Source: Candidatus Aminicenantota bacterium (GTDB lineage Bacteria; Acidobacteriota; Aminicenantia; Aminicenantales; Aminicenantaceae). Taken from it: a DNA stretch of 37,904 nucleotides. The stretch spans positions 1 through 37,904 of the forward strand of contig QMPV01000007.1 in the NCBI GenBank assembly GCA_003648765.1, in the 5' to 3' direction. The position numbers and the translations under genes were made by a program. The stretch's first letter is position 1. Every line of letters begins with the position of its first letter. Positions 17,589 through 32,158 of this stretch are shown here, in pieces. The notes under the pieces are model-generated. The model was not told where the DNA came from. It did no database searches and saw nothing but the letters and a program-made list of their open reading frames with translations.

Positions 17589-19472
17589 ATGTGTGGTATT
17601 TGTGGCATTTACAGCTTTTCTTCTCTTCCTCCGGAAAGTCGAGAAGAAGTACAGCGAATGAACTCCTCTCTTCGCCACCGGGGCCCTGACGATGAAGGTT
17701 ATTATTTTGACTCTCAAGTGGCTTTAGGAATGAGACGTCTAAGTATCATTGACCTCATCACTGGCCATCAACCTCAAAGTAATGAAGATAAAACCATTTG
17801 GGTAATATTAAACGGCGAAATCTATAATTTTCGAGAAATTAGAAAATATTTAATCCACCAGGGACACCGTTTCCAAACAAAATCTGATACCGAAGTCATT
17901 GTCCACCTTTATGAAGAAAAGGGGATAGATTTTGTGGAAGAGCTCAATGGCATGTTCGCTCTGGCTCTTTGGGATAAAGCAACCAAAACTTTTCTGCTCG
18001 TCCGCGACCGCCTCGGTATCAAACCCCTCCATTACACCTTTTATCAAGGTCGCCTCTATTTTGCCTCAGAAATAAAAGCCATTCTGCAGACTGATTTCCC
18101 TCGGGAAATGGACTGGGAAGCTTTGCATCAATATTTTACTTTCGAATACATTCCCGCTCCCCGAACTATCTTCAAAAATTTACATAAACTTTTGCCTGGC
18201 CATCGCCTGATTATTCAAAATAACTCCTGGAAAATAGAAAAATATTGGGATATTCCCTATCGAGAAAACCCCTCTTCTTCTCCCCACCCTGAGCAGCTCA
18301 CTCAAGAAATCCGGACTCGTCTCCAAGAATCTGTGCGTAAAAGATTGATCAGTGATGTGCCTCTCGGCGTCTTTCTCAGCGGAGGCCTGGATTCCAGTTC
18401 AGTCACTGCCTTTATGAGTCAATTAGTTAAAGAGCCGATCAAAACTTTTTCCATTGGTTTCGAAGAAGAGAGTTTCAACGAACTAGATTACGCTCGCCTG
18501 GTGGCGAAAAGATTTAAAACAGAGCACCACGAATTCATTGTGCGCTCAGCTCAAGTCAAGGAACTTGTCCCCCAATTAATAAAATTTCTGGATGAGCCTC
18601 TGGCCGACGCCTCAGTTATTCCTACTTACATTATTTCTCGTCTTGCCCGCGAATTTGTCACAGTGGCCTTAGCGGGCGAGGGTGGCGATGAGCTCTTCGC
18701 TGGCTATGACACTTATAAGGCTTACAAAATTGCCAAATTCTATCGTCAACTGCCAAACTTCCTTCGCCAAGCCATCATTAAACCATTGGTCTATTTATTG
18801 CCGGCCTCCAGCAAAAGATTGAGTTTTGAGTTCAAGGCCAAAAAATTCATCAGTGGCACGGATTACCCTCCGGAAATTGCCAACTATATCTGGTGGGGAG
18901 CTTATCATCCTGACCTCCGTCAACAACTTTTAGCCCCTCATCTATCTTCTCCAGAAAATCCTTACTCTCCTGTCTACTTTCATTTAAATAACTGCCGGGC
19001 GCCCGATGAACTAACCCGCCTCACTTATCTCGACTTGAAGCTCTATCTTCAAGACGATTTGCTCGTCAAAGTCGACCGAATGAGTATGGCTAATTCTCTG
19101 GAAATTAGAGTGCCTTTTCTGGACCATGAATTTGTTGAATTGGCCGAACAAATTCCCTCTTCTTTAAAGTTAAAAGGTTTAACCACAAAATATATTCTTA
19201 AAAAGGCCATGGCCCCTCTTCTTCCCCCTGAAATCCTGTCCCGGCGTAAAATTGGTTTTGATCTTCCCTTGGGAGTGTGGATAAGAACAGAATTAAAAGA
19301 TTTCGTGCTTGACACCCTCTCTCCAGATAGGCTAAAAAGACATGGTTTGTTCAATCAAAATTTTATCCAAACAATATTAAATGAACATTTCGCAGGCAAA
19401 CATAATCACCGGCAGTTACTGTGGCCCCTTATAATCTTCCAATTCTGGTATGATTTTTACCTTCAATCATGA
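17589..19472 (+). CDS. asnB: Asparagine synthetase B, glutamine-hydrolysing
   Basis: A 627-residue two-domain enzyme. Residues 1 to about 205 are an N-terminal nucleophile glutaminase with catalytic Cys2 exposed after Met removal (MCGICGIYSF), RHRGPDDEG and NGEIYN. The rest is an ATP-pyrophosphatase synthetase with the PP-loop SGGLDSSSV (264-272) and the GEGGDELFAGYD motif. It converts aspartate to asparagine, or amidates a similar carboxylate. In surface-polysaccharide loci, long AsnB homologues often amidate uronic acids or other sugar acids. With a methyltransferase coupled to its end and glycosyltransferases following, that role is possible here. The methyltransferase gene overlaps its stop by ATGA. 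Confidence 0.93.
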   Translation: MCGICGIYSFSSLPPESREEVQRMNSSLRHRGPDDEGYYFDSQVALGMRRLSIIDLITGHQPQSNEDKTIWVILNGEIYNFREIRKYLIHQGHRFQTKSDTEVIVHLYEEKGIDFVEELNGMFALALWDKATKTFLLVRDRLGIKPLHYTFYQGRLYFASEIKAILQTDFPREMDWEALHQYFTFEYIPAPRTIFKNLHKLLPGHRLIIQNNSWKIEKYWDIPYRENPSSSPHPEQLTQEIRTRLQESVRKRLISDVPLGVFLSGGLDSSSVTAFMSQLVKEPIKTFSIGFEEESFNELDYARLVAKRFKTEHHEFIVRSAQVKELVPQLIKFLDEPLADASVIPTYIISRLAREFVTVALAGEGGDELFAGYDTYKAYKIAKFYRQLPNFLRQAIIKPLVYLLPASSKRLSFEFKAKKFISGTDYPPEIANYIWWGAYHPDLRQQLLAPHLSSPENPYSPVYFHLNNCRAPDELTRLTYLDLKLYLQDDLLVKVDRMSMANSLEIRVPFLDHEFVELAEQIPSSLKLKGLTTKYILKKAMAPLLPPEILSRRKIGFDLPLGVWIRTELKDFVLDTLSPDRLKRHGLFNQNFIQTILNEHFAGKHNHRQLLWPLIIFQFWYDFYLQS

Positions 19473-20143
19473 ACCAAATTGATTCTGACCGACTCAAAAA
19501 AATTGAAAAAGATATCCGTGATTTTTATCGCCAACAATCTTGGCTTGTCCGGCTCTACCAAAAAATAAAATTTAAAATCTGTCCCCTTTTACCTCTCGAA
19601 TCTTATTTCCCACCTGAAGGTACTATCCTTGATCTTGGATGTGGCCAGGGATTATTCTCCCTTATTCTCTATCTTGGTTCCCCTAAAAGGAAAATCATCG
19701 GTGTTGATTTGGACGAAAAAAAAATAGAAAAAGCTAAGGAGCTGGTGGGATCAATCCAAAATTTATCCTTCACGCGCCAGGACATTATCCAAGACGATTA
19801 TCCCGCCGTGGATGCTGTGGCGCTGATAGATGTTCTTTATCTCCTTCCTTATGAAACTCATCTCCACATTTTCAAAAAAGTTAATGACTGTTTACCTCCT
19901 CACGGCCTTTTCCTTCTTAAAGAAATGGATACCCGCCCCCGGTGGAAATACCTCTGGAATATACTCCAAGAAACTCTAGCGGTTAAAATTATTGGTTTTA
20001 CTTTAGGCAGTCGTTTCTATTTCCGTTCCCAGAAGGACATGCTTCTCCTCCTGAATCAAGCTGGATTCCAAACGAAAGTCATCAATCTTCATCAAGGATA
20101 CTGGTATCCCCACATAGCTTATCTCTGCCATAAAAAAACTTAA
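19469..20143 (+). CDS. Class I SAM-dependent methyltransferase
   Basis: A 224-residue methyltransferase translated by ATGA overlap with asnB. Motif I ILDLGCGQGLFS (53-64) and the following acidic strand (IIGVDLDEKKI) give a clear SAM-binding fold. Motif IV is VDAVALIDVLYLL and the post-motif is LPPHGLFLLKEMD. The N-terminal 50 residues and the region near 170 contain basic-hydrophobic stretches that could contact membranes. The coupled translation suggests it acts in the same pathway as the AsnB-like enzyme, perhaps on a glycan intermediate. No closer assignment is possible. Confidence 0.85.
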   Translation: MNQIDSDRLKKIEKDIRDFYRQQSWLVRLYQKIKFKICPLLPLESYFPPEGTILDLGCGQGLFSLILYLGSPKRKIIGVDLDEKKIEKAKELVGSIQNLSFTRQDIIQDDYPAVDAVALIDVLYLLPYETHLHIFKKVNDCLPPHGLFLLKEMDTRPRWKYLWNILQETLAVKIIGFTLGSRFYFRSQKDMLLLLNQAGFQTKVINLHQGYWYPHIAYLCHKKT

Positions 20144-20161
20144 CTATGTTCTTTCCTCTTA

Positions 20162-20189
20162 TTGGCCAGACTAGGTTAAGATTTATAAT
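20162..20189 (+). promoter_or_regulatory. Candidate promoter for the GT9-Dpm1-rsmA-radical SAM run
   Basis: TTGGCC (20162-20167), 16 bases, TATAAT (20184-20189). The -10 is a perfect match and the -35 matches four of six. It lies in the 122-base gap before the GT9 gene, the longest gap inside this plus-strand run. A second possibility, TTGTCT-17-CATAAC at 20202-20230, overlaps the same gap. Confidence 0.4.
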
Positions 20190-20253
20190 TAAGCAGAAAA
20201 GTTGTCTTCCTCTTGGATTTATGGCATAACTTAATACTACTTTTGATGATAAA

Positions 20254-20258
20254 AGAGG
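20254..20258 (+). promoter_or_regulatory. Ribosome binding site fixing a TTG start for the GT9 gene
   Basis: AGAGG lies seven bases before the TTG at 20266. No in-frame ATG occurs until well into the conserved domain. The protein reads through a cysteine-rich leader directly after this TTG, so the non-ATG start is well supported. Confidence 0.55.
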
Positions 20259-20265
20259 TAGATAA

Positions 20266-21363
20266 TTGCAATTAAAAGATGATTGTCTACATTTTCGGGG
20301 TGATAAGCCCTGTAAATACAAACGCTTGTGTTCCGGTTGTCCCTATTATCAACCTTTTCCCAAACGGATTCTCATTATAAAAGGTCGAGCTCAGGGCGAT
20401 GTGCTCCGGACTACACCTCTCTTGCCCGCTATCAAAAGAACTTATCCTGATTCTCATCTCACCTGGATAGTCGATGAGGAAAGTGTGCCCCTGTTAACCC
20501 ATAATCCTTATCTTGATCGCCTTGTCTTTTTCTCCTTAGAAAATGTTCTTTACCTTCAACAGCAAACCTTTGACCTACTTCTTTCTTTAGACAAAGAACC
20601 TCTTTCCACTGCTTTGGCTCAATCAATTAAAGCCAAAGAAAAAAAAGGTTTTGGCCTGAATCAGTGGGGTAACTTAACTATTTTCAACCCCGAAAGCGAA
20701 TATGCTTTTCAATTAGGAGTGGATGACGAGTTGAAATTTCACCAGAATAAAAAAACATATCAACAAATAATTCATGAAATGACGGGCTTTAATTATCAAC
20801 GTGATCCTTATTTATTTTATCTTCAAGAAGAAGATACGCTAAGGGCAAAAAAGTACTTCCAATCAAAAAAAATAGATAAATCTCGTCCTTTAATTGGTCT
20901 CAACACCGGAGCCGGAGAAAAATTTTTAACTAAGCAATGGCCCGCGGAATACTTTATTCAATTAAGCCAAATGCTCTATCAAGAATTAAAAGCTAATATT
21001 TTCCTTTTAGGCGGCCCCCGAGAAACCAAACTCAATCAGCAAATAGAAAAGAAGTCCAATATACCTATTTTTAATACTGGAAATGACAATAGTTTACGCG
21101 AATTTGCTGGTTTTATTTCTTTTTTAGATGTGGTAGTCTGCGCCGATACCCTAGCTCTTCATTTAGCTCTGGCTCTAAAAAGAAAAGTTGTCGCTCTCTT
21201 TGGCCCCACTTGTCCTCAAGAAATCGACATGTATGACTTAGGTGTTAAATTATTTGCCGGAGTGCCTTGTTCCCCTTGTTACAAGCCAACTTGTGCTGAA
21301 CTTTCTTGTATGAAATCAATTAAACCTATCCAGGTCTTAGAAGCGATAAAATCACTTCTGTAA
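20266..21363 (+). CDS. GT9-family (heptosyltransferase-like) glycosyltransferase with N-terminal cysteine cluster
   Basis: A 365-residue GT-B enzyme of the ADP-heptose:LPS heptosyltransferase family. ILIIKGRAQGDVLRTTPLLP is the N-domain acceptor loop, followed by IGLNTGAGEKFLTKQWP and the donor-domain ADTLALHLALALKRKVVALF. Two cysteine clusters stand out. One is N-terminal to the fold (C7, C16, C22, C25 in a 28-residue leader ending CSGCPYY). The other is C-terminal (VPCSPCYKPTCAELSCM), the latter being common in the family. The leader could bind zinc or an iron-sulphur cluster, which is an inference from spacing. Translation starts at TTG with a good Shine-Dalgarno sequence. The Dpm1-like gene follows after two bases. 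Confidence 0.88.
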   Translation: MQLKDDCLHFRGDKPCKYKRLCSGCPYYQPFPKRILIIKGRAQGDVLRTTPLLPAIKRTYPDSHLTWIVDEESVPLLTHNPYLDRLVFFSLENVLYLQQQTFDLLLSLDKEPLSTALAQSIKAKEKKGFGLNQWGNLTIFNPESEYAFQLGVDDELKFHQNKKTYQQIIHEMTGFNYQRDPYLFYLQEEDTLRAKKYFQSKKIDKSRPLIGLNTGAGEKFLTKQWPAEYFIQLSQMLYQELKANIFLLGGPRETKLNQQIEKKSNIPIFNTGNDNSLREFAGFISFLDVVVCADTLALHLALALKRKVVALFGPTCPQEIDMYDLGVKLFAGVPCSPCYKPTCAELSCMKSIKPIQVLEAIKSLL

Positions 21364-21365
21364 CC

Positions 21366-22106
21366 ATGAAGAAAAATATTGTTGTGATGATTCCCACTTA
21401 TAATGAAAAAGATAACATTATTCCTCTAATTGAAGAAATCCTAGCGTTGAACAATCAATATAATTACCAAGTTCTGGTGGTCGACGATAACTCTCCTGAC
21501 GGTACGGCTCAAATAGTTAAGACCAAATTCGGCCAAGACCCCCGGGTTAAAACACTAGTTCGGTTAAAACGACGAGGTCGGGGAGCAGCTGGAATTGATG
21601 GCTTCAAGGCTGCCCTGAGGATGAAGCCAGATTTTATCATTGAAATGGATGCTGATTTTTCTCACCAACCTCAGGAAATTCCCCGCCTTTTGGCCCAGGC
21701 TGATCAAGCTGATATTATTATCGGATCTCGGTTTGTGAAAGGTGGCCAGGACAATGAAAGAAATTTAATAAGAAGAGTAATCACCTTTTTTGTGCGACTC
21801 TATATTCGGAGATCTTTCAAAATTCCGGTGAAAGATGTTTCTTCCGGCTTCCGTTGTTTCCGCCCCGAAGTACTCGAAGCTCTCGACCTGGATGATCTGA
21901 TCTCGGTGGGACCTTCGGTAGTATTAGAAACCCTTTACAAAGCCCATCTTCTCGGCTTCAAAATGAAAGAAGTGCCCATCACTTTCCGGGACAGAGCCCG
22001 GGGCCAAACCAAATTAAATTTCCCCCTTCTTCTAGAAACTTTCGTCATGAGTTTAATCATCAAAGAAAGACTAAAACACCTCCACTCTATTGTTGGCGAG
22101 AAATAA
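21366..22106 (+). CDS. Dpm1-type GT2, polyprenyl-phosphate mannose synthase-like
   Basis: A 246-residue GT2 enzyme of the short, soluble dolichol-phosphate mannosyltransferase class. IPTYNEKDNI, VVDDNSPDGT and EMDADFSHQP are the donor and metal-binding motifs of Dpm1. The C-terminal segment RDRARGQTKLN is the conserved basic loop. Unlike the two other GT2 enzymes in this window it lacks the paired C-terminal membrane helices. It probably makes a polyprenyl-phosphate hexose at the membrane surface. That could feed either GT39 enzyme here. It starts two bases after the GT9 stop with no separate ribosome site, consistent with coupling. Confidence 0.9.
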   Translation: MKKNIVVMIPTYNEKDNIIPLIEEILALNNQYNYQVLVVDDNSPDGTAQIVKTKFGQDPRVKTLVRLKRRGRGAAGIDGFKAALRMKPDFIIEMDADFSHQPQEIPRLLAQADQADIIIGSRFVKGGQDNERNLIRRVITFFVRLYIRRSFKIPVKDVSSGFRCFRPEVLEALDLDDLISVGPSVVLETLYKAHLLGFKMKEVPITFRDRARGQTKLNFPLLLETFVMSLIIKERLKHLHSIVGEK

Positions 22107-22121
22107 AGTTAAATTTTTTCC

Positions 22122-22979
22122 ATGAAAAAATCAAAAAGACATTCTCTCGGCCAACATTTTTTAAAAAATCCACGACTTATCCACAAAATAATTAACATTA
22201 TTGACCCCCATGAAGACGAATTGATTGTAGAAATTGGAGCAGGTAAAGGCAGTCTGACTCTGCCTCTGGCTGAACGGTGCGGCCTGGTTTTAGCTATAGA
22301 AAAAGACCCTTCTTTGGTTGACCTCCTGAAAAATATCATCCCTGCTAATGTCAAGCTGATAGCTGCAGACATTCTCAAGCTAAATTTAAGCCACATCATC
22401 GCTAGGCCCCAAAAAGAATATTCCCAGATAAAATTAGTTGGCAACCTCCCTTACTCTATAGCTTCCCAAATCATTTTGAAGGCTTTTGAACATAAAGCCG
22501 ACTTCCCTTTCTGGGTTTTCCTCCTTCAAGAAGAAATGGCCCAACGTTTCTTAGCTTCGCCTGGGAGTAAAAAATTCAATCCTCTGGGAATTATGCTCCA
22601 GATCTACTTCGAAATTCGCCCTGAGCTCAAAATAAACCCGAGGTCGTTTCAGCCCCCACCTCGGGTCTATTCCATCCTTCTCTCTTTTACCCAGCGATCA
22701 ACCCCTCTCTTTCCTTTACCCGAAGAAAAAAACTTCCATTCCTTTTTAAAAAAATGTTTCGCTACTCGCCGGAAAACTCTAAGTAATAATCTTCTGGCCG
22801 CCTCATTCTCTCCAGAGGCGGTGACAGAGGCTTTCTCCATTTTGAAAATCCCCCCTAAAGCCAGAGCAGAAGAATTGTCGTTGAAAACCTTTTTTGCCCT
22901 TTATAATTTTTTCTACTTGAAAAATAAGTCCGAAAACCCGGAGAATATATTGTTAGTGAAGGACAGAAAAAATGAATAA
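22122..22979 (+). CDS. rsmA: 16S rRNA (adenine1518-N6/adenine1519-N6)-dimethyltransferase
   Basis: The 285-residue KsgA/RsmA enzyme dimethylates two adjacent adenines in the 3' terminal helix of 16S rRNA during 30S maturation. Hallmarks are HSLGQHFLKNP at the start, the SAM loop EIGAGKGSLT, the catalytic NLPYSIASQI and the downstream PPPRVYS motif. A C-terminal helical domain with KKCFATRRKTL binds RNA. The last eight bases overlap the radical SAM gene. Some 14 residues after the usual end (from about SENPENILL) are not conserved as far as I recall. Its presence inside a glycosyltransferase run is probably incidental. Confidence 0.95.
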   Translation: MKKSKRHSLGQHFLKNPRLIHKIINIIDPHEDELIVEIGAGKGSLTLPLAERCGLVLAIEKDPSLVDLLKNIIPANVKLIAADILKLNLSHIIARPQKEYSQIKLVGNLPYSIASQIILKAFEHKADFPFWVFLLQEEMAQRFLASPGSKKFNPLGIMLQIYFEIRPELKINPRSFQPPPRVYSILLSFTQRSTPLFPLPEEKNFHSFLKKCFATRRKTLSNNLLAASFSPEAVTEAFSILKIPPKARAEELSLKTFFALYNFFYLKNKSENPENILLVKDRKNE

Positions 22980-23949
22980 CTGGAAATATTATCGTCGATT
23001 GGTTCAACTTTTTATTGCCTATAAAAGGAAAAAATTAAAGCTCTCCTACATGCCCGTCAGAATTTGGGTTGAACCCACTAGCTACTGCAACCTTAAATGT
23101 ATTATGTGTCCCAATAAAGATTTACCTAAAGAACAGAAAGGATTTATGGAATGGACCCTATATAAAAAAATAATTGATGAGGCAGCTCAATCGATTTTTG
23201 ACATCCACCTTCTCCATAGAGGCGAATCGCTTCTCCATCCAGACTTCTTCAAAATGGCCCGCTATGCCCACGAAAAAGGCTTAACCGTTAAGTTCCATAC
23301 TAATGGCACACTTCTTAACGAAGAGAAATCATATCAATTGATTGAATCAGGGATTGATCAATTCTCCTTCTCCTTTGACGGTTATAAAAAAGAAACATAT
23401 GAAAAAATTAGAGTTGGAGCCGATTTCGATAAAACGGTGCAAAACATTATCCAATTTTTGGAAATTAAAAAGAAGTTGAAGGCCAAAAAACCATTTACTA
23501 TTCTGGAATTAATAAATTTTCCAGAGGAAAACATTCGACATGATCGGATAGGAAGAAAGAAATTTCTCCAAAATTTCGCGGGCTTGCCTTTGGATAAATT
23601 AGAAATTAAGGAACTTCATAATTGGGCCGGTGAAATTCCCCGTCCTAGACGACCAAAAGACTTTTCTCCTTGCACTTTCCTCTGGCAAGCTCTGATCATC
23701 TTCTGGGATGGGTCAGTCCTTCCCTGTACCCAGGACTTTTTTGGTTATCTTACTTTAGGCAATGTAAAAAGCTCTTCCTTGGCTGAAATCTGGAATGGAG
23801 AAAAGCTAATCAGGTTGCGCCAGAAAATGATTAACCATGATATTGATGATCTAAAACCCTGCCGTCAATGTGATCGTCCTTGGAGAGAGAAAATTCTGGG
23901 AGTACCTAAAGAATATCTCTGGAAGTTTATTAGCAAACGCATGCCCTAA
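22972..23949 (+). CDS. Radical SAM protein with SPASM-type C-terminal cysteines
   Basis: A 325-residue radical SAM enzyme. The 4Fe-4S cluster motif is C39-x3-C43-x2-C46 (YCNLKCIMC), followed by a TIM-barrel-like domain with HTNGTLLNEE and FSFDG. The C-terminus has cysteines in an SPASM-like arrangement (SPCTFLW, VLPCTQDFFG, CRQCDRPW) that would hold a second cluster. SPASM proteins modify peptides or proteins, or act on sugars and tRNA. This one is typical of envelope-gene neighbourhoods in candidate phyla, and no peptide substrate gene is visible next to it. AAGGA lies nine bases before the ATG, inside the end of rsmA. Confidence 0.88.
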   Translation: MNNWKYYRRLVQLFIAYKRKKLKLSYMPVRIWVEPTSYCNLKCIMCPNKDLPKEQKGFMEWTLYKKIIDEAAQSIFDIHLLHRGESLLHPDFFKMARYAHEKGLTVKFHTNGTLLNEEKSYQLIESGIDQFSFSFDGYKKETYEKIRVGADFDKTVQNIIQFLEIKKKLKAKKPFTILELINFPEENIRHDRIGRKKFLQNFAGLPLDKLEIKELHNWAGEIPRPRRPKDFSPCTFLWQALIIFWDGSVLPCTQDFFGYLTLGNVKSSSLAEIWNGEKLIRLRQKMINHDIDDLKPCRQCDRPWREKILGVPKEYLWKFISKRMP

Positions 23950-24016: not shown

Positions 24017-24061
24017 TACAACTCAATAAAAATTTTTTTTATATAGAGAAGAAATAAAAGT

Positions 24062-24066
24062 GGAGG
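24062..24066 (+). promoter_or_regulatory. Ribosome binding site fixing a TTG start at 24075
   Basis: GGAGG followed by eight bases and TTG (24075). An in-frame GTG at 24060 would place the Shine-Dalgarno sequence inside the coding region and has none upstream. The TTG start also gives a clean signal peptide. Confidence 0.7.
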
Positions 24067-24074
24067 CAGGTAAA

Positions 24075-25454
24075 TTGAAAATCATAAAATTTTTCTTAAT
24101 GGCTTTATTCATATTAACTCTCTCTTTTCTCGTTATTGCCCAAGAAGCTTCGACTTCTCAAGAAATAAAATCAATATTAAAATCAATAACTTATGAAAAA
24201 ACAGACTCGGGACTTACTGTTCACATCCAGATTGAAGGCGAATTTGCTTCAGAATTTTTCGAACTTCAGTCTCCCCACCGACTAGTTTGCCAACTGACCC
24301 CAATTAATGAAATTAAAGTTCCAGCAGAGATAGAAGTAAAAATAATGAACCTAGAAAAAATCCGGGTCGGACAGTATGAAGCCCAAACAGTCCGGATTGT
24401 CTTCGATTGCACTGAAGAGCCGGTAGCTGTCGAAGTAAAAACAACTTCCACTGGCCTTGATGTTTTCTTCTCTCCCCCCGTTACTACAGAAAAAACGCCC
24501 ACTCCAGAATCTCCTTCTGCGGAAAAATTGAGCTCTCTGCAAACCGTGACGACCCAACGAGATAACCAACGTATCCTTCTTAATCTCCAAATTTCAGGAG
24601 CTTTTGAAACTCCCCAAGTGGAACTTGTCCAAGGTAACCTTTTCTCCTGTGAATTATCTCCCCTTAATTCGACTAACCTGCCTCCTTTACCTGAATTTAG
24701 GAGTGCGGGAATAATCCAATTAAAATTAGAACCCCTCGACTCCAAAACTATTAGACTCCGTCTCCAGCTGGCCCGGCGAATCGATTCTCTCAAAATGGAG
24801 AAAACCGACTCTGGCCTTCTTCTCTCCTTTTTACCAACTACCTACCAAGCCCCTCCTAAAATTTCCCCGGTAAAGAGAAAAGTTATTCCTCCTCCAGAAA
24901 AAAAGATTATCTATCCACCTTGTGGAAATACACTGATTAATCTGCAATATGGGACTTATTTTGTTTCTTCTGAAGTTTTCAGCCAAGTCTACGGAAACAG
25001 GATCTCTCTTTATGGAGGAGCAATCTCCAAAATTATTCTTCGTCAGGACAACCACAATTTTCTGCTTAATTTTGGCTTCTCTCGCACCTCGGTTAATGGT
25101 GAATCAACCGTGACTAAGGAAGCCACTCAATTTTCTATGTCTCCCCTATCTCTGACCATTGGCTACTTGGCTAACCATCCTTACGTTATTCCCTATATTG
25201 GTCTAGGGGGGGATCTAATCTCTTATAAAGAGACGAGTGATATTTTCACTACCTCGGGTTCAACCTGGGGGTATCATCTCGAAGGCGGAGCTTTTTTTAA
25301 AATTCCTCGAGCGGAATTTCTTATGCTCAAGATTTATTTGAAGCTTTCCAAAGCCGTGGCTCAAGAAAATGACATCGAAATAGATTTAGGCGGCCTGGAA
25401 TTCGGCTTGGGGCTTACTTTCGGCTTTAATCTCTGGAAAACTCTGAACTTCTAA
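24075..25454 (+). CDS. Secreted protein with two AMIN-like domains and a C-terminal outer-membrane beta-barrel
   Basis: A 459-residue protein, not assigned to a named family. A signal peptide (MKIIKFFLMALFILTL, cut near residue 22) is followed by two related beta domains (about 30-134 and 155-254). Both carry the same phrases: EKTDSGL at 41 and again at 242, and FELQSPHRLVCQL next to VELVQGNLFSCEL. These resemble AMIN domains, which bind peptidoglycan or target proteins to the envelope. A proline-rich linker (260-283) leads to about 175 residues of alternating amphipathic strands ending in NLWKTLNF. A terminal Phe is the classic BAM recognition signal of outer-membrane barrels. It probably joins the cell wall to the outer membrane. 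It ends in a shared-stop overlap with the convergent propeller protein. Confidence 0.75.
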   Translation: MKIIKFFLMALFILTLSFLVIAQEASTSQEIKSILKSITYEKTDSGLTVHIQIEGEFASEFFELQSPHRLVCQLTPINEIKVPAEIEVKIMNLEKIRVGQYEAQTVRIVFDCTEEPVAVEVKTTSTGLDVFFSPPVTTEKTPTPESPSAEKLSSLQTVTTQRDNQRILLNLQISGAFETPQVELVQGNLFSCELSPLNSTNLPPLPEFRSAGIIQLKLEPLDSKTIRLRLQLARRIDSLKMEKTDSGLLLSFLPTTYQAPPKISPVKRKVIPPPEKKIIYPPCGNTLINLQYGTYFVSSEVFSQVYGNRISLYGGAISKIILRQDNHNFLLNFGFSRTSVNGESTVTKEATQFSMSPLSLTIGYLANHPYVIPYIGLGGDLISYKETSDIFTTSGSTWGYHLEGGAFFKIPRAEFLMLKIYLKLSKAVAQENDIEIDLGGLEFGLGLTFGFNLWKTLNF

Positions 25455-27646
25455 TTTGAATTACCTTCATTAACCGCGTGGGATTTGCGGCTCTCCTGCC
25501 CATCGACCGTGACCGCTGTCAAGACATAGCTATATTTATGTCCTACTTCGAGATCTCGATCAAAAAATCTGCGCTTTGAAATATCTACGGCTCCGATAAA
25601 AATGTAATCTTTTTGTGAAGTGGAATTAAGATCGCACCGATAAATCCGATATTGTCCTACTTCTACTGGATCGTTAAGGGGGTTATCTTTCCAGCGAACC
25701 ACATTAACCTTTTCCACAAAAAAGAGAGATTCATTAATAGTAGTCACTATCGTAATAGAACGAGGAGGAAAGACAGGCTCCTCAAAGGCGGTTAAAGAAG
25801 GCTCACATTCGAGTCCTAACTTATCTGTGGCGGTGAGGTAATATTCGTATTTTATTTTAGTCGATAAATTCTTATCTTCGTAAGTAAAAGTCTGTCCGGA
25901 GACCGCTTTTATAAATTTAAACTTGGCTTCTGGTCGAACTTCCCGACGATAAAGGCGATAAGAGCTCACTGCACCTTTGGAATTCAGCGGGTTTTCCTTC
26001 CAAGTAATGATATTTATTTTTTTCATCTTTTTTGTATCCAATCGAGAAATAATTTTAATATCCACTGGATTGAACACAAGCGGCTCAGCTACTTCATCAG
26101 AAAAATCACTTTCTTGGTTATCAACATCTATGGTAGTTAAGACATAAGAAAATTTCTTGGTATCTGGCAGATTCTTGTCTTCGTAAGAAAAAGTGGCTTT
26201 CCCCAGCGTAGCAATCGGTTTGTATTGACTTTCTCCCTGCTGGACTTCTTTTCGATAAAGTCGATAGCTTTTCACTCGGGTGTTGTCATTATCTGGGTTT
26301 TTCTTCCACCGGATGATATTCTTTTTAAACCCTGGCTCTTCTGCCCGCTTGGTGACCAGTTTAATCCCTACGGGAGGGAGAATCCCCTGGCCAACAATCT
26401 CGCCAGTAGTGGCATACATAATATCATAAGTACCGGAATATTCCTCCGCATAAGCTAGATGAATCTCTCCCGAAGGATCCACAGCCACACTGGGCATAAT
26501 TGAATTATGATTATTGGCCGTCAAATCAGCGGGAGCTGACCAGACCCCACCTATAAAACTCTTAATAAATATCTGCCATTTATCATTACGCTTCTGCTGC
26601 CAAACGAGATAAACATCCCCAGTAGTCCAGTCAACAGCTAATCCAGGCCACTTAGCCTGACTACCTGTTTGAGAAACATTAATGGTACCTTGCCAAACAT
26701 CTTGGAAACAGCGACGGAAATATATTTCATAATTACTTCCTTTCTTTTGCTCCCAGGCTACGTAGACATTTCCTTGGCTATCGGTAGCTAATCGAATCTC
26801 AGAAAAATCAATGTAGGTTTGTCCTGAAATCGCCACAGGATTGGTCCAGGCATTTGGATTAGTAGGAGTATCATTGCGGGCATAGTAAACGACTGAACCT
26901 CCGCCGCCTCGTCTTAACCAGATAAGATGCAGCCGACCCCGACCATCAACACTTATTTTGGGGGTATAAGCAGAGGTGGGAATGGGCAATGTAGCCAGAC
27001 CACTCCAGGAAGCACTGGCAGGATCTCGATAACGGAATAAGAGAGCCCAGACATCGGCCCGGTACTCATCATCCTGCCAGATGACATATCTTCTCAAATT
27101 ATTAGGATCCACCGCTACTGTTGGGTAAGCGGAACCGCCCTCTGCAGTTTGAGAGACATTATAATTGGAGCCCCAACCACCTGCATCACTGCCCATTCCA
27201 TAATAAGTATTAAACCAGACTTCATAATTGCCCACACTATTTTTGGCTGTAAAAACCACATGGGGAGTTCCTTGCGAATCAATTGTTAAATGGGGCCACG
27301 GCCCAGAAGCACTGACAGTAGTTCCACTTGAAACCTGAATTGGTTTACCCCAGTCACCAGAAATATTCGTATTAAAATAAACTGATTTAGGCTTACTCAT
27401 CCTCACCCAGATGACATAAGCGTGCCCATTGCTATCCACCACAATCTGGGGTTCCATGGAATTGACTCGGGAGTTAGAAATATTAATGGCTGAAAAATCA
27501 GCTGCTTTTCTTAAGGGAAGAGAATGTCTTAACTGAATTTCATTATTTTTCTTTCTTCCCGTCTCTGAAGAAAATAGAGTGCTCGCTAAGGCTAAACTTA
27601 AAAAGAGAAATATTCCCCAAAACTTAAAAATTTGCTTTTTTTTCAT
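25451..27646 (-). CDS. Secreted seven-bladed beta-propeller protein with three FN3 domains
   Basis: A 731-residue exported protein. The signal peptide MKKKQIFKFWGIFLFLSLAL is followed by seven repeats of about 45-55 residues (roughly residues 64-417). Each has the pattern P-x-hydrophobic-x-V-D followed by G-x-hydrophobic-Y/H-V-x-W (for example GNVYVAWEQ, GDVYLVWQQ, GEIHLAYAE), as in BNR/sialidase-like propellers. Three fibronectin type III domains follow (about 422-522, 523-627, 628-731), each ending near a phrase such as YSYVLTAVTVDGQES. Sialidase catalytic residues are not evident, so a binding role is more likely. I chose the ATG at 27646. An upstream TTG at 27670 is in frame. It is paralogous to the protein at 30261, which has two FN3 units. 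Confidence 0.82.
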   Translation of the reverse strand: MKKKQIFKFWGIFLFLSLALASTLFSSETGRKKNNEIQLRHSLPLRKAADFSAINISNSRVNSMEPQIVVDSNGHAYVIWVRMSKPKSVYFNTNISGDWGKPIQVSSGTTVSASGPWPHLTIDSQGTPHVVFTAKNSVGNYEVWFNTYYGMGSDAGGWGSNYNVSQTAEGGSAYPTVAVDPNNLRRYVIWQDDEYRADVWALLFRYRDPASASWSGLATLPIPTSAYTPKISVDGRGRLHLIWLRRGGGGSVVYYARNDTPTNPNAWTNPVAISGQTYIDFSEIRLATDSQGNVYVAWEQKKGSNYEIYFRRCFQDVWQGTINVSQTGSQAKWPGLAVDWTTGDVYLVWQQKRNDKWQIFIKSFIGGVWSAPADLTANNHNSIMPSVAVDPSGEIHLAYAEEYSGTYDIMYATTGEIVGQGILPPVGIKLVTKRAEEPGFKKNIIRWKKNPDNDNTRVKSYRLYRKEVQQGESQYKPIATLGKATFSYEDKNLPDTKKFSYVLTTIDVDNQESDFSDEVAEPLVFNPVDIKIISRLDTKKMKKINIITWKENPLNSKGAVSSYRLYRREVRPEAKFKFIKAVSGQTFTYEDKNLSTKIKYEYYLTATDKLGLECEPSLTAFEEPVFPPRSITIVTTINESLFFVEKVNVVRWKDNPLNDPVEVGQYRIYRCDLNSTSQKDYIFIGAVDISKRRFFDRDLEVGHKYSYVLTAVTVDGQESRKSHAVNEGNSN

Positions 27647-27705
27647 GATTAATCTTTTATTCCTCTCCAAGGCTGTTGAAATAATACCAAATAAAGAGTG
27701 AGAAA

Positions 27706-27840: not shown

Positions 27841-30264
27841 ATGAGTATGGCCGTCCTAAAAAAATTTCCAGTTTCTCTTAACCAATCTCCTTCTAAAATC
27901 CTTATCTTTCTTCTGCTTCTAGGATTGATCACTAGATTAATTGGTCTCAATTTTGGACTTCCTTTTCTTTATCATGTGGATGAAGCTAGATTCGCCCAAA
28001 TATCTTTGAAATATTTTAGCGGCGACCTCAACCCCCACTTTTTCCACGTCCCTTCTTTTTACACTTATCTCCAAGCGGGAGTCTGGGGAATCTTTTATTT
28101 ACTGGGTAAATTGTTGGGGTTTTTCTCTTCACTGGAACATTTCATCTCTTCCTTTCAAGCTAACCCCACCTTGTTCATTCTTATTGGTCGATTGATTAAT
28201 CTTATCTTCAGTCTGGGTACAATTGCTTTAGTCTTTACGCTTGGTCGCAAAATTTATTCTCTCCGGGCTGGCTTCTGGGCTGCTCTTCTCCTCATTTTCT
28301 CCCACATCCACAACAAAATTTCCCATTATTCCCTACCGGATGTACCCATGGTCTTTTTTCTCGTGCTAACTTTTTACTTCATCTGGGAACTTTACACTAA
28401 AGGACAAGCCCGCTCCTATCTTCTCGCAGGTCTATTCGCTGGCTTGGCTACAGCCACTAAATACGGAGGACAACTGCTGTTTCTGCCACTTTTTCTGGCT
28501 CATTACGATTATCACCGTCGCCAAAAGCATTCATGGCGGACTCTCCTCTTTCACCCCCCACTCTGGGGAGCCGGAATCCTTTTCATCATGGCTTTCTTGG
28601 CTGGTTGTCCCTTTTCTCTTCTTGATTTCCAAACTTTCTGGAAAGATTTCCAATGGCAATCCCAACACCTTTACACCGTCGGTCACTATGGTGGAGCTCT
28701 TCACCAATCCGCTTTTCTCTTCTACCTCTTTTATGGATTCAGGGAAAATATTGGATTGATTGCTCAATGGCTGCTTCCCTTAGGTCTCCTTTTGGCTTTA
28801 AAACAAAGAAATAAAAATGATCTCTTGCTCCTTTCCTACCCTCTTTTGATGTTTATTATTGTCGCCACTTGGAAAGCAAAAGCTGTCCGTTATCTCTTAC
28901 CTTTTATTCCCTTTTTGATAATTTTCTGTGGAAAAATTATGGATCAAATCTTGTCCTTCTGGGAACAATTTCACTCTTCTCTGCCTTTTCCTCATCTCTC
29001 AATTAAAATAAACCGCAGATTAATCATCGGGGTAATCAGTTTGGCTGTAATCCTCCCCCAGGCCTATAAAGTAACCCGATTTGACCTCAGCCTTACCCAA
29101 AAAGACACTCGGACTTTAGCCCGAGAATGGATTCTAACTCATCTTCCCCCGAAATCCACTATAGCTCTGGAAATGTATGGCCCTCCTCTCTTTGACTGCG
29201 ATTACCACCTTCTTTATCGTCATACTTTGGGCAATGTCAATTTAGAATGGCTAGCTTTTCGCCAGGTAGAATTCATTATTATTAGCGATATTATGTATCA
29301 GCGTTTCGTGACCAATCCTCAGGAATATCCTAAACAGGCTGCTTTTTACCAATCTTTAGAAGAAAAAGCTGTCTTGATCAAAGAATTTGTTCCTTCCTGG
29401 AATGAAGAACTGATTGATCTTCACAATCCCACCATAAAGATCTATCGGCTAAGCACCCTTCCCAACTATGATTTTCCTGGCAATTTCCGCCAATATGCTC
29501 AAAGCATCACTTTGATTAAAACCAGCCGCCTCCAGTGGCAACTCCAGACAACAGCCATCTCTCTTTATCCTTCTGGTTCTCAAGAAAAAGTCACCCAACC
29601 TTTCATCGAAATTCGCTCCCCCAAGGGGGCAACTCGGGCTAAAATCTATCTGCATCCCCTCCCTTCTCTTAACACTGCTTTCCCCAGAAAAGAATACTCA
29701 GGCCAAGCCAACCAAATTGAAATTAAACCCCAAGATGAACTTTATATTGGTTATGAATATATCTTTGATCCAGCCCCAGATTATCTCCAAAATGTTGGCC
29801 CTTATGAGAAAAAATTCCGTTTGACAAAAGGATTCACCTCGGAAAGTCTGGCCAAAAAAGAATTAAATATATATTTCTTCTATCGTCAATCTCCTGGGAA
29901 AAACGGCGATGAATACTTTCAAATAGTCACCATCACTCCTCACCGAAAAAATTTTAGGTTTTTCAGCCAGATATATGGTGGTGAATTACGGTGGGGAGAT
30001 GACTATTTGGTGAATCCTTTTGCCCAAATTGTGGATAATCAAGGCCGCCTCCTTTTTAAATTAAGCCTCTTTGAAGGAAAAATAGGCTCCTCTCAGGCAG
30101 ATAAAAGAGGCCCGGCGCGCAAATCAATGGGCATTCCCCCTCTCTCCTCTCCTTTTAAAATCCAGGGAGGCTTTACTTTCTATTACGACAACCAGAGACC
30201 TGAAAAAGCCGGCGGCCCAGTACTCTTCTCCTTTCCAAGTCTATTCTCGACCACAGAGAATTAA
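27841..30264 (+). CDS. GT39-type (GT-C) membrane glycosyltransferase with long C-terminal soluble region
   Basis: An 807-residue polytopic enzyme. The catalytic-type acidic pair D47-E48 (LYHVDEARFAQ) lies in the first periplasmic loop, followed by about ten hydrophobic helices to residue 415. SHIHNKISHYSLPDVPM and TKYGGQLLFLP are typical of PMT_2/GT39 proteins. The last 390 residues are soluble and mostly periplasmic. The final third (from about residue 560) has beta-rich stretches such as EIRSPKGATRAKIYLH. The donor should be a polyprenyl-phosphate sugar, perhaps from the Dpm1-type enzyme at 21366. Two start codons, 27841 and 27847, are equally possible. Its stop codon overlaps that of the convergent propeller protein by four bases. 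Confidence 0.83.
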   Translation: MSMAVLKKFPVSLNQSPSKILIFLLLLGLITRLIGLNFGLPFLYHVDEARFAQISLKYFSGDLNPHFFHVPSFYTYLQAGVWGIFYLLGKLLGFFSSLEHFISSFQANPTLFILIGRLINLIFSLGTIALVFTLGRKIYSLRAGFWAALLLIFSHIHNKISHYSLPDVPMVFFLVLTFYFIWELYTKGQARSYLLAGLFAGLATATKYGGQLLFLPLFLAHYDYHRRQKHSWRTLLFHPPLWGAGILFIMAFLAGCPFSLLDFQTFWKDFQWQSQHLYTVGHYGGALHQSAFLFYLFYGFRENIGLIAQWLLPLGLLLALKQRNKNDLLLLSYPLLMFIIVATWKAKAVRYLLPFIPFLIIFCGKIMDQILSFWEQFHSSLPFPHLSIKINRRLIIGVISLAVILPQAYKVTRFDLSLTQKDTRTLAREWILTHLPPKSTIALEMYGPPLFDCDYHLLYRHTLGNVNLEWLAFRQVEFIIISDIMYQRFVTNPQEYPKQAAFYQSLEEKAVLIKEFVPSWNEELIDLHNPTIKIYRLSTLPNYDFPGNFRQYAQSITLIKTSRLQWQLQTTAISLYPSGSQEKVTQPFIEIRSPKGATRAKIYLHPLPSLNTAFPRKEYSGQANQIEIKPQDELYIGYEYIFDPAPDYLQNVGPYEKKFRLTKGFTSESLAKKELNIYFFYRQSPGKNGDEYFQIVTITPHRKNFRFFSQIYGGELRWGDDYLVNPFAQIVDNQGRLLFKLSLFEGKIGSSQADKRGPARKSMGIPPLSSPFKIQGGFTFYYDNQRPEKAGGPVLFSFPSLFSTTEN

Positions 30265-32102
30265 TCTTCTTTAGCGGTTAAAGAACGAGGACTTTCATTC
30301 CCATCCGTATCGACAACTGTCACAGCATAGGCATATTTTTGGTCAAAAGACAATCCTCGATCAGTGTAACTAAACGTGCCTGCTTCTACAGTGGAAACCA
30401 ATTTAAAGGCACTGTCACCGGCACTGGCTTTTTTCCGGTAGATATTATAGTGAGACAAATTGAGAGGGTCATTTAAAGGATTATGTTGCCAAGAAAATTT
30501 TATTATCTTTTCTCGATAAAACAGAACACGATTGACAAAAGTTTCCACTGAAGGTGATAAAGGAGCAAAAATTCTGTCTTCGGCTACTGCTTCCGAAAGG
30601 CCACTTTCTTGGTCCCACTTATCAATTGCTGAAACGGCGTAACGATACTTTACATTGGTGGGCAATCCCTGATCCTGGTAACTAAAAGTAGCCCCATCAA
30701 CAGTGGCCATTAATTGCCACGAATTAACTCCTTCTTCCTGGCGATAAATTCGATAGTTCTGGATATCTAACCCTGTATTATCTTCATTAGCTTCCCAGTT
30801 GAGAAGATTATTTTTAGTGGAAGTAGCCTCATCAAGGGAGGTGCTTAAGGTTAAATTCACCGGCGGAGAAGGCTGGCGCAGAGGTTTTCCCAATCGACAT
30901 CGATAAAAAATATTCCAAGCACCAGTTCGATTGTCAGTAAAAACAAGATGAATCGATCCCCCTTGATCCACGTAAAGATGGGGATGAGCTGAGGAAGAGG
31001 AATAAGACGTCAGATTAACAGCATCTAACCAATGGCCATCTTTAAATTCACGGAAATATATCTTTTGACCTTCTTCCCAAGCCACATAAATATCACCTGT
31101 TTCCTTATTAACCGCTACCGTCGGGTCCTCAGAAGGTCCAGGTGAATTGGAAAGATTGATAATAGCTGACCATTTATTTTTAACTCTTTTCCGAAAATAA
31201 ACCTCAATGTTGCCTTCTCGGGTATCCATCCAGACCACATAGACATTACCAGCGTTGTCGCAGGCAATTTGGGGATAAGCAAAACTCAAACCGGTAGAAC
31301 TAGAGATATCAATGGAATCAGTCCACTTGGTCCAATCTTTAGGTTCTTTATTCTGAGTAAAAAACACTCGAGTCAAATTGCCTAGAGCCCGATTGGCATA
31401 AATGACATAAATGGCACCTTTAGCATCGATAGCGGCCTGTGGGGTATAAGCCCGGTGTTGCCTATCGGGAAGAATGCCTCCACCTATCCACGAACCGGAT
31501 CCCCCTCGGAGATAGCGCATCCATATCTCCCAGTAAGTTTGTTCCTCAAAAGCTCGATTGGCATCATCCTGCCATAAGACATAATAATCATTGGTATTGC
31601 GATCAATGACGATACAAGGATAGGCTGAACCTCCATTGGAAGTCTTGGAAACATTCCAGTGTCCCGTCCAAGCGCCATTTATATAGCGATTTAACACAGC
31701 CTCATAATTACCCTCGGTCACGGCTGAGTAGAGAATACAAGGAACACCATTGTTATCGACTTCAATTTCTGGCCAAGGCCCCTCACCGATTCTAACTTCG
31801 CCTTTAGTAATATTCTGAGGCGTTCCCCACTCTCCAGAAAGATTAGTATTATAAAAAACTCGTTGTCCCCCATCCTCTTCTACCCAGATAACATGCACAT
31901 TACCTTCCCCATCTACAGCCACTTTGGCATCATAACTGGGGGCACCGGACATAGAAACATTAACTGGCTCCGACCATTCCTCGCTCACGGCAGCCTCAAA
32001 GGCCGGACGATCTATTCTAACATCGGCTGCTTGGCTAACTAGGAGAAAAGCTCCTATCATTAAAAAACTAAAAATAGCAACTATAGTTTTTTTCTTTTTC
32101 AT
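30261..32102 (-). CDS. Secreted seven-bladed beta-propeller protein with two FN3 domains
   Basis: A 613-residue paralogue of the protein at 25451. The signal peptide MKKKKTIVAIFSFLMIGAFL ends near an Ala-Ala-Asp site. Seven propeller repeats follow (for example GNVHVIWVE, GNVYVVWMD, GDIYVAWEE), then two FN3 domains ending in KYAYAVTVVDTDGNESP. Blade order and wording match the paralogue closely (YVLWQDD against YVIWQDD in the third blade), so the pair arose by duplication and one FN3 unit was then gained or lost. The ATG at 32102 is certain from AAAGGAG five bases upstream. A 36-base extension in the same frame is therefore rejected. The function is probably binding or adhesion at the cell surface. 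Confidence 0.84.
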   Translation of the reverse strand: MKKKKTIVAIFSFLMIGAFLLVSQAADVRIDRPAFEAAVSEEWSEPVNVSMSGAPSYDAKVAVDGEGNVHVIWVEEDGGQRVFYNTNLSGEWGTPQNITKGEVRIGEGPWPEIEVDNNGVPCILYSAVTEGNYEAVLNRYINGAWTGHWNVSKTSNGGSAYPCIVIDRNTNDYYVLWQDDANRAFEEQTYWEIWMRYLRGGSGSWIGGGILPDRQHRAYTPQAAIDAKGAIYVIYANRALGNLTRVFFTQNKEPKDWTKWTDSIDISSSTGLSFAYPQIACDNAGNVYVVWMDTREGNIEVYFRKRVKNKWSAIINLSNSPGPSEDPTVAVNKETGDIYVAWEEGQKIYFREFKDGHWLDAVNLTSYSSSSAHPHLYVDQGGSIHLVFTDNRTGAWNIFYRCRLGKPLRQPSPPVNLTLSTSLDEATSTKNNLLNWEANEDNTGLDIQNYRIYRQEEGVNSWQLMATVDGATFSYQDQGLPTNVKYRYAVSAIDKWDQESGLSEAVAEDRIFAPLSPSVETFVNRVLFYREKIIKFSWQHNPLNDPLNLSHYNIYRKKASAGDSAFKLVSTVEAGTFSYTDRGLSFDQKYAYAVTVVDTDGNESPRSLTAKED

Positions 32103-32129
32103 AGTCACTCCTTTAATTATTGAGTAATA

Positions 32130-32158
32130 TTTATACACGAGATATCTTAAAAAATCAA
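32130..32158 (-). promoter_or_regulatory. Promoter for the two-FN3 propeller gene
   Basis: On the minus strand TTGATT (32153-32158), 17 bases, TATAAA (32130-32135). Transcription would start about 20 bases before the ATG and just include the AAAGGAG ribosome site (32108-32114). Good agreement of promoter, leader and ribosome site. Confidence 0.6.

Follow-up and report, generated by a model that had tools for sequence, protein, structure and literature searches.

A predicted outer-membrane barrel with two AMIN domains in Candidatus Aminicenantes and its gene pairing with FN3-ending secreted proteins

The locus and its neighbours

The window, a stretch of 37,904 nucleotides, is part of a 2.77-Mb draft genome of an uncultured Candidatus Aminicenantes bacterium. 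It carries on its + strand an open reading frame (24060/24075-25454) whose product comprises a signal peptide, two AMIN domains, a proline-rich linker and a predicted C-terminal barrel (Table 1). Two codons, GTG at 24060 and TTG at 24075, were weighed as the start. The sequence TGGAGGC is found directly before the TTG in the window and in both congeners compared, Candidatus Aminicenantes JdFR-80 and HyVt-101, which have the same gene; GGAGG lies 8 nt 5' of the TTG, whilst the codon at 24060 varies among these genomes between GTG, TTG and ATG. Since GGAGG and the TTG are conserved and codon 24060 is variable, the GTG is the less likely start, and the TTG, already favoured in an earlier sequence-only reading of this DNA, was kept as the better one. 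The product from the TTG has 459 residues, though residue numbers are counted throughout from the GTG.

The convergent gene at 25451-27670 shares 4 bp with the end of the barrel gene, including its stop codon, and its product has a signal peptide, a predicted beta-propeller and three FN3 domains. Being convergent, these two genes are not co-transcribed. A Foldseek search with the product of the neighbour returned mainly FN3 tandems. It ends in an FN3-like domain, referred to here as the CTD. A paralogue with the same CTD, of 625 residues and with weak GH43/BNR_4 matches, is encoded on the - strand at 30261-32138, and the two genes flank one for a PMT-type glycosyltransferase. On the other side of the barrel gene, the region 17589-23949 (+) contains genes for an asparagine synthase, a methyltransferase, GT9 and GT2 glycosyltransferases, a KsgA-like protein and a radical SAM/SPASM protein, in an order kept in the congeners. 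In the window genus it is the radical SAM enzyme gene which lies upstream of the barrel gene; no SGNH gene is found beside the barrel in this genus, full or partial copies occurring elsewhere (G000 C27, G021 C29).

Table 1. Features of the barrel gene and its convergent neighbour (residues in GTG numbering)
Feature	Coordinates	Strand	Basis and remarks
Ribosome-binding site GGAGG	24062..24066	+	Serves TTG 24075; spacing and TTG conserved in both congeners compared
Signal peptide, residues 6-27	24075..24140	+	Inspection: KIIKFFLMALFILTLSFLVIA^QEAS; AlphaFold2 helix 2-26
AMIN domain 1, residues 34-142	24159..24485	+	PF11741, 27.4 bits (cut-off 20.5)
AMIN domain 2, residues 154-262, divergent	24519..24845	+	Independent AMIN profile; like strand order in model
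Proline-rich linker, residues 263-286	24846..24917	+	29% Pro; pLDDT<50 over residues 262-281
Predicted 8-stranded outer-membrane beta-barrel, residues 287-464	24918..25451	+	AlphaFold2, Foldseek, sub-threshold PF13505
Convergent neighbour, secreted beta-propeller with three FN3 domains, likely partner	25451..27670	-	Model; convergent gene with the same CTD beside 6/6 double-AMIN genes
C-terminal FN3-like domain (CTD) of the neighbour	25454..25786	-	Profile search; common to genes upstream of related barrels

Domain composition and predicted fold

A Pfam scan of the protein places an AMIN domain at residues 43-135, above the gathering cut-off, and leaves the second under Pfam's own threshold. 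This second domain is nonetheless matched at E=4e-7 by a profile built from single-AMIN relatives only, the best of 1000 shuffles reaching 0.08, and AMIN1 matches AMIN2 at E=1e-7. The orthologue L103 holds two PF11741 stretches, and in the AlphaFold2 model both domains are beta-rich with a like order of strands. The second domain is, to judge by its sequence, a true but worn AMIN; the canonical motif kept in AMIN1 (SPHRLVCQL) has been lost from it (QGNLFSCEL). The phrase EKTDSGL, which had been read as common to the duplicated domains, proved coincidental: one copy lies at residues 46-52, where AMIN1 starts, and the other at about 247-253, where AMIN2 ends, so that the copies are out of register, at opposite ends of the repeats, and were rejected as evidence of duplication. 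Across the family, AMIN matches at E<0.01 are present in 16 of 20 members (best 5e-15), and a search of solved structures with the 20-member profile recovered the AMIN parts of PilQ (1.6e-12) and AmiC (2.6e-9).

The C-terminal part is predicted to be an 8-stranded up-and-down outer-membrane barrel of the OmpA/OmpX kind, with Phe as its last residue. AlphaFold2 builds eight long strands between residues 291 and 456; the underlying alignment, drawn from the window and the loci of the genome-contig scan, consisted of four orthologue sequences and the model has a mean pLDDT of 74.5 and a pTM of 0.39, so that the placement of the domains within it carries no meaning. The best PDB matches of the barrel in Foldseek were OmpA, OmpX, OprF and NspA, at a target TM of about 0.67-0.76; the full list, which also included OmpW and Ail, had values mostly of 0.55-0.76, and PilQ was matched more weakly. 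Residues 331-454 score 21.8 bits against PF13505 (OMP_b-brl), under the cut-off of 28.7, whilst the relative L046 scores 32.8 bits, and 18 of 20 family members, this protein included, match at E<0.01 (best 4e-12). AlkL and Opa were met at chance level when the barrel in the 20-member profile was compared with solved structures. The architecture recognised in the sequence-only reading is thus borne out by profiles, AlphaFold2 and Foldseek. The AMIN similarity of the first half, on which that reading depended, is present, the barrel half matches PF13505 family-wide though itself sub-threshold, and structure prediction gives a membrane barrel in place of a soluble beta-sandwich. With eight strands the barrel is too narrow to form a useful pore; a translocator role is therefore unlikely and was rejected.

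Parallels can be drawn with several known proteins. OmpA and OprF also join an 8-stranded barrel, by way of a flexible linker, to a periplasmic domain with a predicted peptidoglycan-binding role, and the likeness rests on a fold match; here, however, the order of the parts is reversed, two AMINs stand in place of OmpA_C (PF00691), a domain which the Pfam scan did not find in the protein, and the barrel sequences are distantly alike. The N-terminal AMINs are homologous to those of the secretin PilQ, which often has two in tandem, and of the amidase AmiC, but the protein has neither a secretin nor an Amidase_3 domain. TonB-dependent transporters have 22 strands and a plug domain. By contrast the present barrel is small, 8-stranded and without a plug, the Pfam scan of the protein having found no plug or TonB_dep_Rec domain. 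An N-terminal AMIN followed by an outer-membrane beta-barrel is nevertheless shared with the AMIN-bearing transporters of this class that have been tabulated (PMC6434023), so AMIN on an outer-membrane barrel has precedents, a correction to the earlier reading.

Family distribution and pairing with secreted genes

The protein does not stand alone: barrels of the same family, with 0, 1 or 2 AMINs, occur across the order. Family matches were obtained in 32 of the 38 genomes of the GTDB family and 56 of the 94 of the order, and none in the viral contigs searched. A search of relatives for the same architecture found the double-AMIN form in three genera and two families, namely in three species of the window genus and in G035, G284 and G285, the last two belonging to another family than the window genome; single-AMIN and bare barrels are commoner in the order. 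A tree of 79 barrel sequences calls for 10 changes among the three architectures and, judging by well-supported branches, for no fewer than 7 for the bare form; the double-AMIN genes fall in one clade (support 88/88) together with single-AMIN and bare barrels. AMIN modules have therefore come and gone repeatedly on one barrel. Several of these single-AMIN and bare barrels are directly preceded by an SGNH esterase gene.

Other AMIN proteins were noted in passing. Five genes encoding 395-443 residues (L094, L099, L101, L102, L116) have a longer C-terminal part with an outer-membrane-type last strand, are unmatched by the small-barrel profile and lie directly downstream of SGNH-FN3 genes. Three more (L066, L067, L068; 480-513 residues) have a barrel-like last strand and another conserved neighbourhood, and the one scanned protein of this set has a PKD-like middle. 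The window genome itself encodes one OmpA_C protein, an AMIN amidase and an AMIN PilQ.

Of 37 co-directional genes immediately preceding bare barrels, 28 end in the CTD, compared with 17 of 434 in the background (p~1e-25); the profile used was trained partly on barrel neighbours, for which its sensitivity is therefore inflated. The bias does not affect a single-sequence search with the product of 25451-27670, the last ~110 residues of which match the products of genes immediately 5' of bare barrels in G003, G004, G013 and G037. When barrels and tail were searched separately in six whole genomes, 16 of 30 barrels had a tail at most 171 bp upstream on the same strand; the two one-contig genomes among them yielded 3 and 2 barrel-tail pairs against about 0.002 expected in each. 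The gap is short, with a median of 15 bp in 33 co-directional pairs. Where the small-barrel profile misses the C-terminal part of an AMIN protein, the upstream gene has the CTD in 7 of 12 cases. Pairing is weak for single-AMIN barrels, 3 of whose 15 co-directional upstream genes carry the domain. A convergent FN3-ending gene adjoins each of the six double-AMIN genes, though these do not amount to six independent events since the loci share descent. In G035 and G285 an SGNH-CTD gene lies in addition directly upstream (gaps of 4 and 1), and in G284 an SGNH match just upstream runs off the contig.

The bodies of the putative cargos are diverse: papain with lectin, SGNH esterase with BACON, matrixin with Big_7, a beta-lactamase fold, FG-GAP and SBBP propellers. 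Because these are otherwise unrelated, having in common little beyond the CTD and a barrel neighbour, the pattern suggests that the CTD serves as a tag for docking or sorting, with the barrel as receptor. Barrel and CTD distances correlate over all pairs with r=0.82, a value confounded by common descent, and within one genome (G037) coevolution of cargo and barrel did not reach significance (r=0.31, a value equalled or exceeded in 87 of 720 permutations). The FN3-like CTD is also found internally in proteins and in orphan genes. Orphan CTD genes without an adjoining barrel occur in G008 and G000; by analogy with orphan type B cargo in Flavobacterium, their products may share a barrel encoded elsewhere.

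A proposed docking barrel and its alternatives

Pull-downs have shown that peptidoglycan is bound by the AMIN domains of PilQ (PMC5285504), and the AMIN tandem would by analogy do the same. Since the barrel is in turn predicted to lie in the outer membrane, a linker between wall and outer membrane, as the sequence-only reading had proposed, is the natural interpretation; the domains and predicted fold fit it, but a passive tether leaves out the pairing with cargo genes, which is the strongest signal. What computation shows is the domains, the predicted fold class, the conservation and the gene pairing; binding of peptidoglycan and of cargo, and insertion into the membrane, we infer. The protein has about an even chance of being a wall-anchored docking barrel, in effect an 'inverted OmpA'. 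Once the protein had been exported by Sec, its C-terminal barrel would insert into the outer membrane. The proline-rich linker, being flexible, would give the two N-terminal AMINs access to peptidoglycan, and by binding it they would anchor the barrel to the wall. The barrel would then dock secreted proteins having the C-terminal FN3-like domain, most likely the convergent propeller-FN3 protein in the window genus, and in other genera also the SGNH esterase encoded directly upstream.

A structural tether between outer membrane and wall, as in OmpA and OprF, with no cargo and with incidental neighbours, is unlikely but survives best among the alternatives. The architecture alone would fit it, other wall tethers could be needed because the genome has only one OmpA_C-domain protein, the single-AMIN barrels are weakly paired, and in the window genus the upstream gene encodes a radical SAM enzyme. 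Secreted genes ending in FN3 are nonetheless found beside close relatives of the barrel much more often than chance would give, the double-AMIN loci have without exception kept the convergent FN3-ending gene, and tethering is no constant role of a barrel on which AMINs come and go. It is improbable that the AMINs instead direct the barrel to denuded peptidoglycan at the septum or pole, as in AmiC and PilQ, there recruiting division or surface functions: although the AMINs of PilQ are needed for its midcell and polar recruitment (PMC5285504) and an AMIN amidase and an AMIN PilQ are encoded in the same genome, no division gene is constantly linked across the loci, an FtsK gene lying near some copies only. 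Least probable of all is that the AMINs bind a protein or surface glycan in place of peptidoglycan, the barrel being a site of glycan export or assembly served by adjoining glycosyltransferases, for whilst PMT-type, GT2 and GT9 genes adjoin in the window and some relatives and the canonical motif is missing from AMIN2, such neighbours vary from one relative to another, the motif is intact in AMIN1, and the family profile recognises the AMIN domains of PilQ and AmiC.

The docking-barrel reading has a counterpart in the Bacteroidota, where genes for type B CTD cargo are commonly followed directly by a porP/sprF-like gene, SprF binds SprB, PorP binds PG1035 and PorE links PorP to the wall (PMC9143113, PMC12618676). 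In both cases the barrel gene typically lies directly downstream of the cargo gene, otherwise unrelated cargos have a CTD in common, and the wall is reached, by prediction here, through a peptidoglycan-binding part. This gene order is seen for most bare-barrel relatives and for the double-AMIN genes of G035 and G285, whereas the CTD gene is convergent in the window. PorP, however, is a barrel of the FadL type with 14 strands and, by Pfam, no homologue of the 8-stranded one, and PorP_SprF (PF11751) had no match in the protein or in 20 family members; the wall-binding part, separate in PorE, is here fused to the barrel. The SprA/Sov translocon (PF14349, TIGR04189) was found in none of the 38 genomes, in a search made without a positive control, and on this provisional basis membership of the T9SS was set aside. 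Given a different barrel, a fused wall-binding part and no SprA match, the protein is best said to work like PorP/SprF and PorE and not to be one of them, a single chain which would do the jobs of both cargo anchor (PorP) and wall anchor (PorE).

More broadly, and more tentatively than for the single protein, the Aminicenantes may possess an undescribed surface-display system in which varied secreted proteins with an FN3-like C-terminal tag are each held by an adjoining cognate 8-stranded barrel, some barrels having AMIN wall anchors, and which evolved independently of the T9SS type B/PorP/PorE arrangement of the Bacteroidota. Of these findings, the novelty lies more in the pairing with cargo than in the AMIN-barrel, a variant of a known theme. 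For the study of how bacteria outside the model phyla tie the outer membrane to the wall and keep proteins at the surface, a small barrel and predicted wall-binding AMINs in a single chain offer a compact, testable tether, and the tight pairing of its relatives with unrelated secreted enzymes which share a tail points to a convergent counterpart of T9SS type B in a lineage in which SprA was not found. If this is true, the tail domain would allow surface proteins to be predicted in many uncultured genomes.
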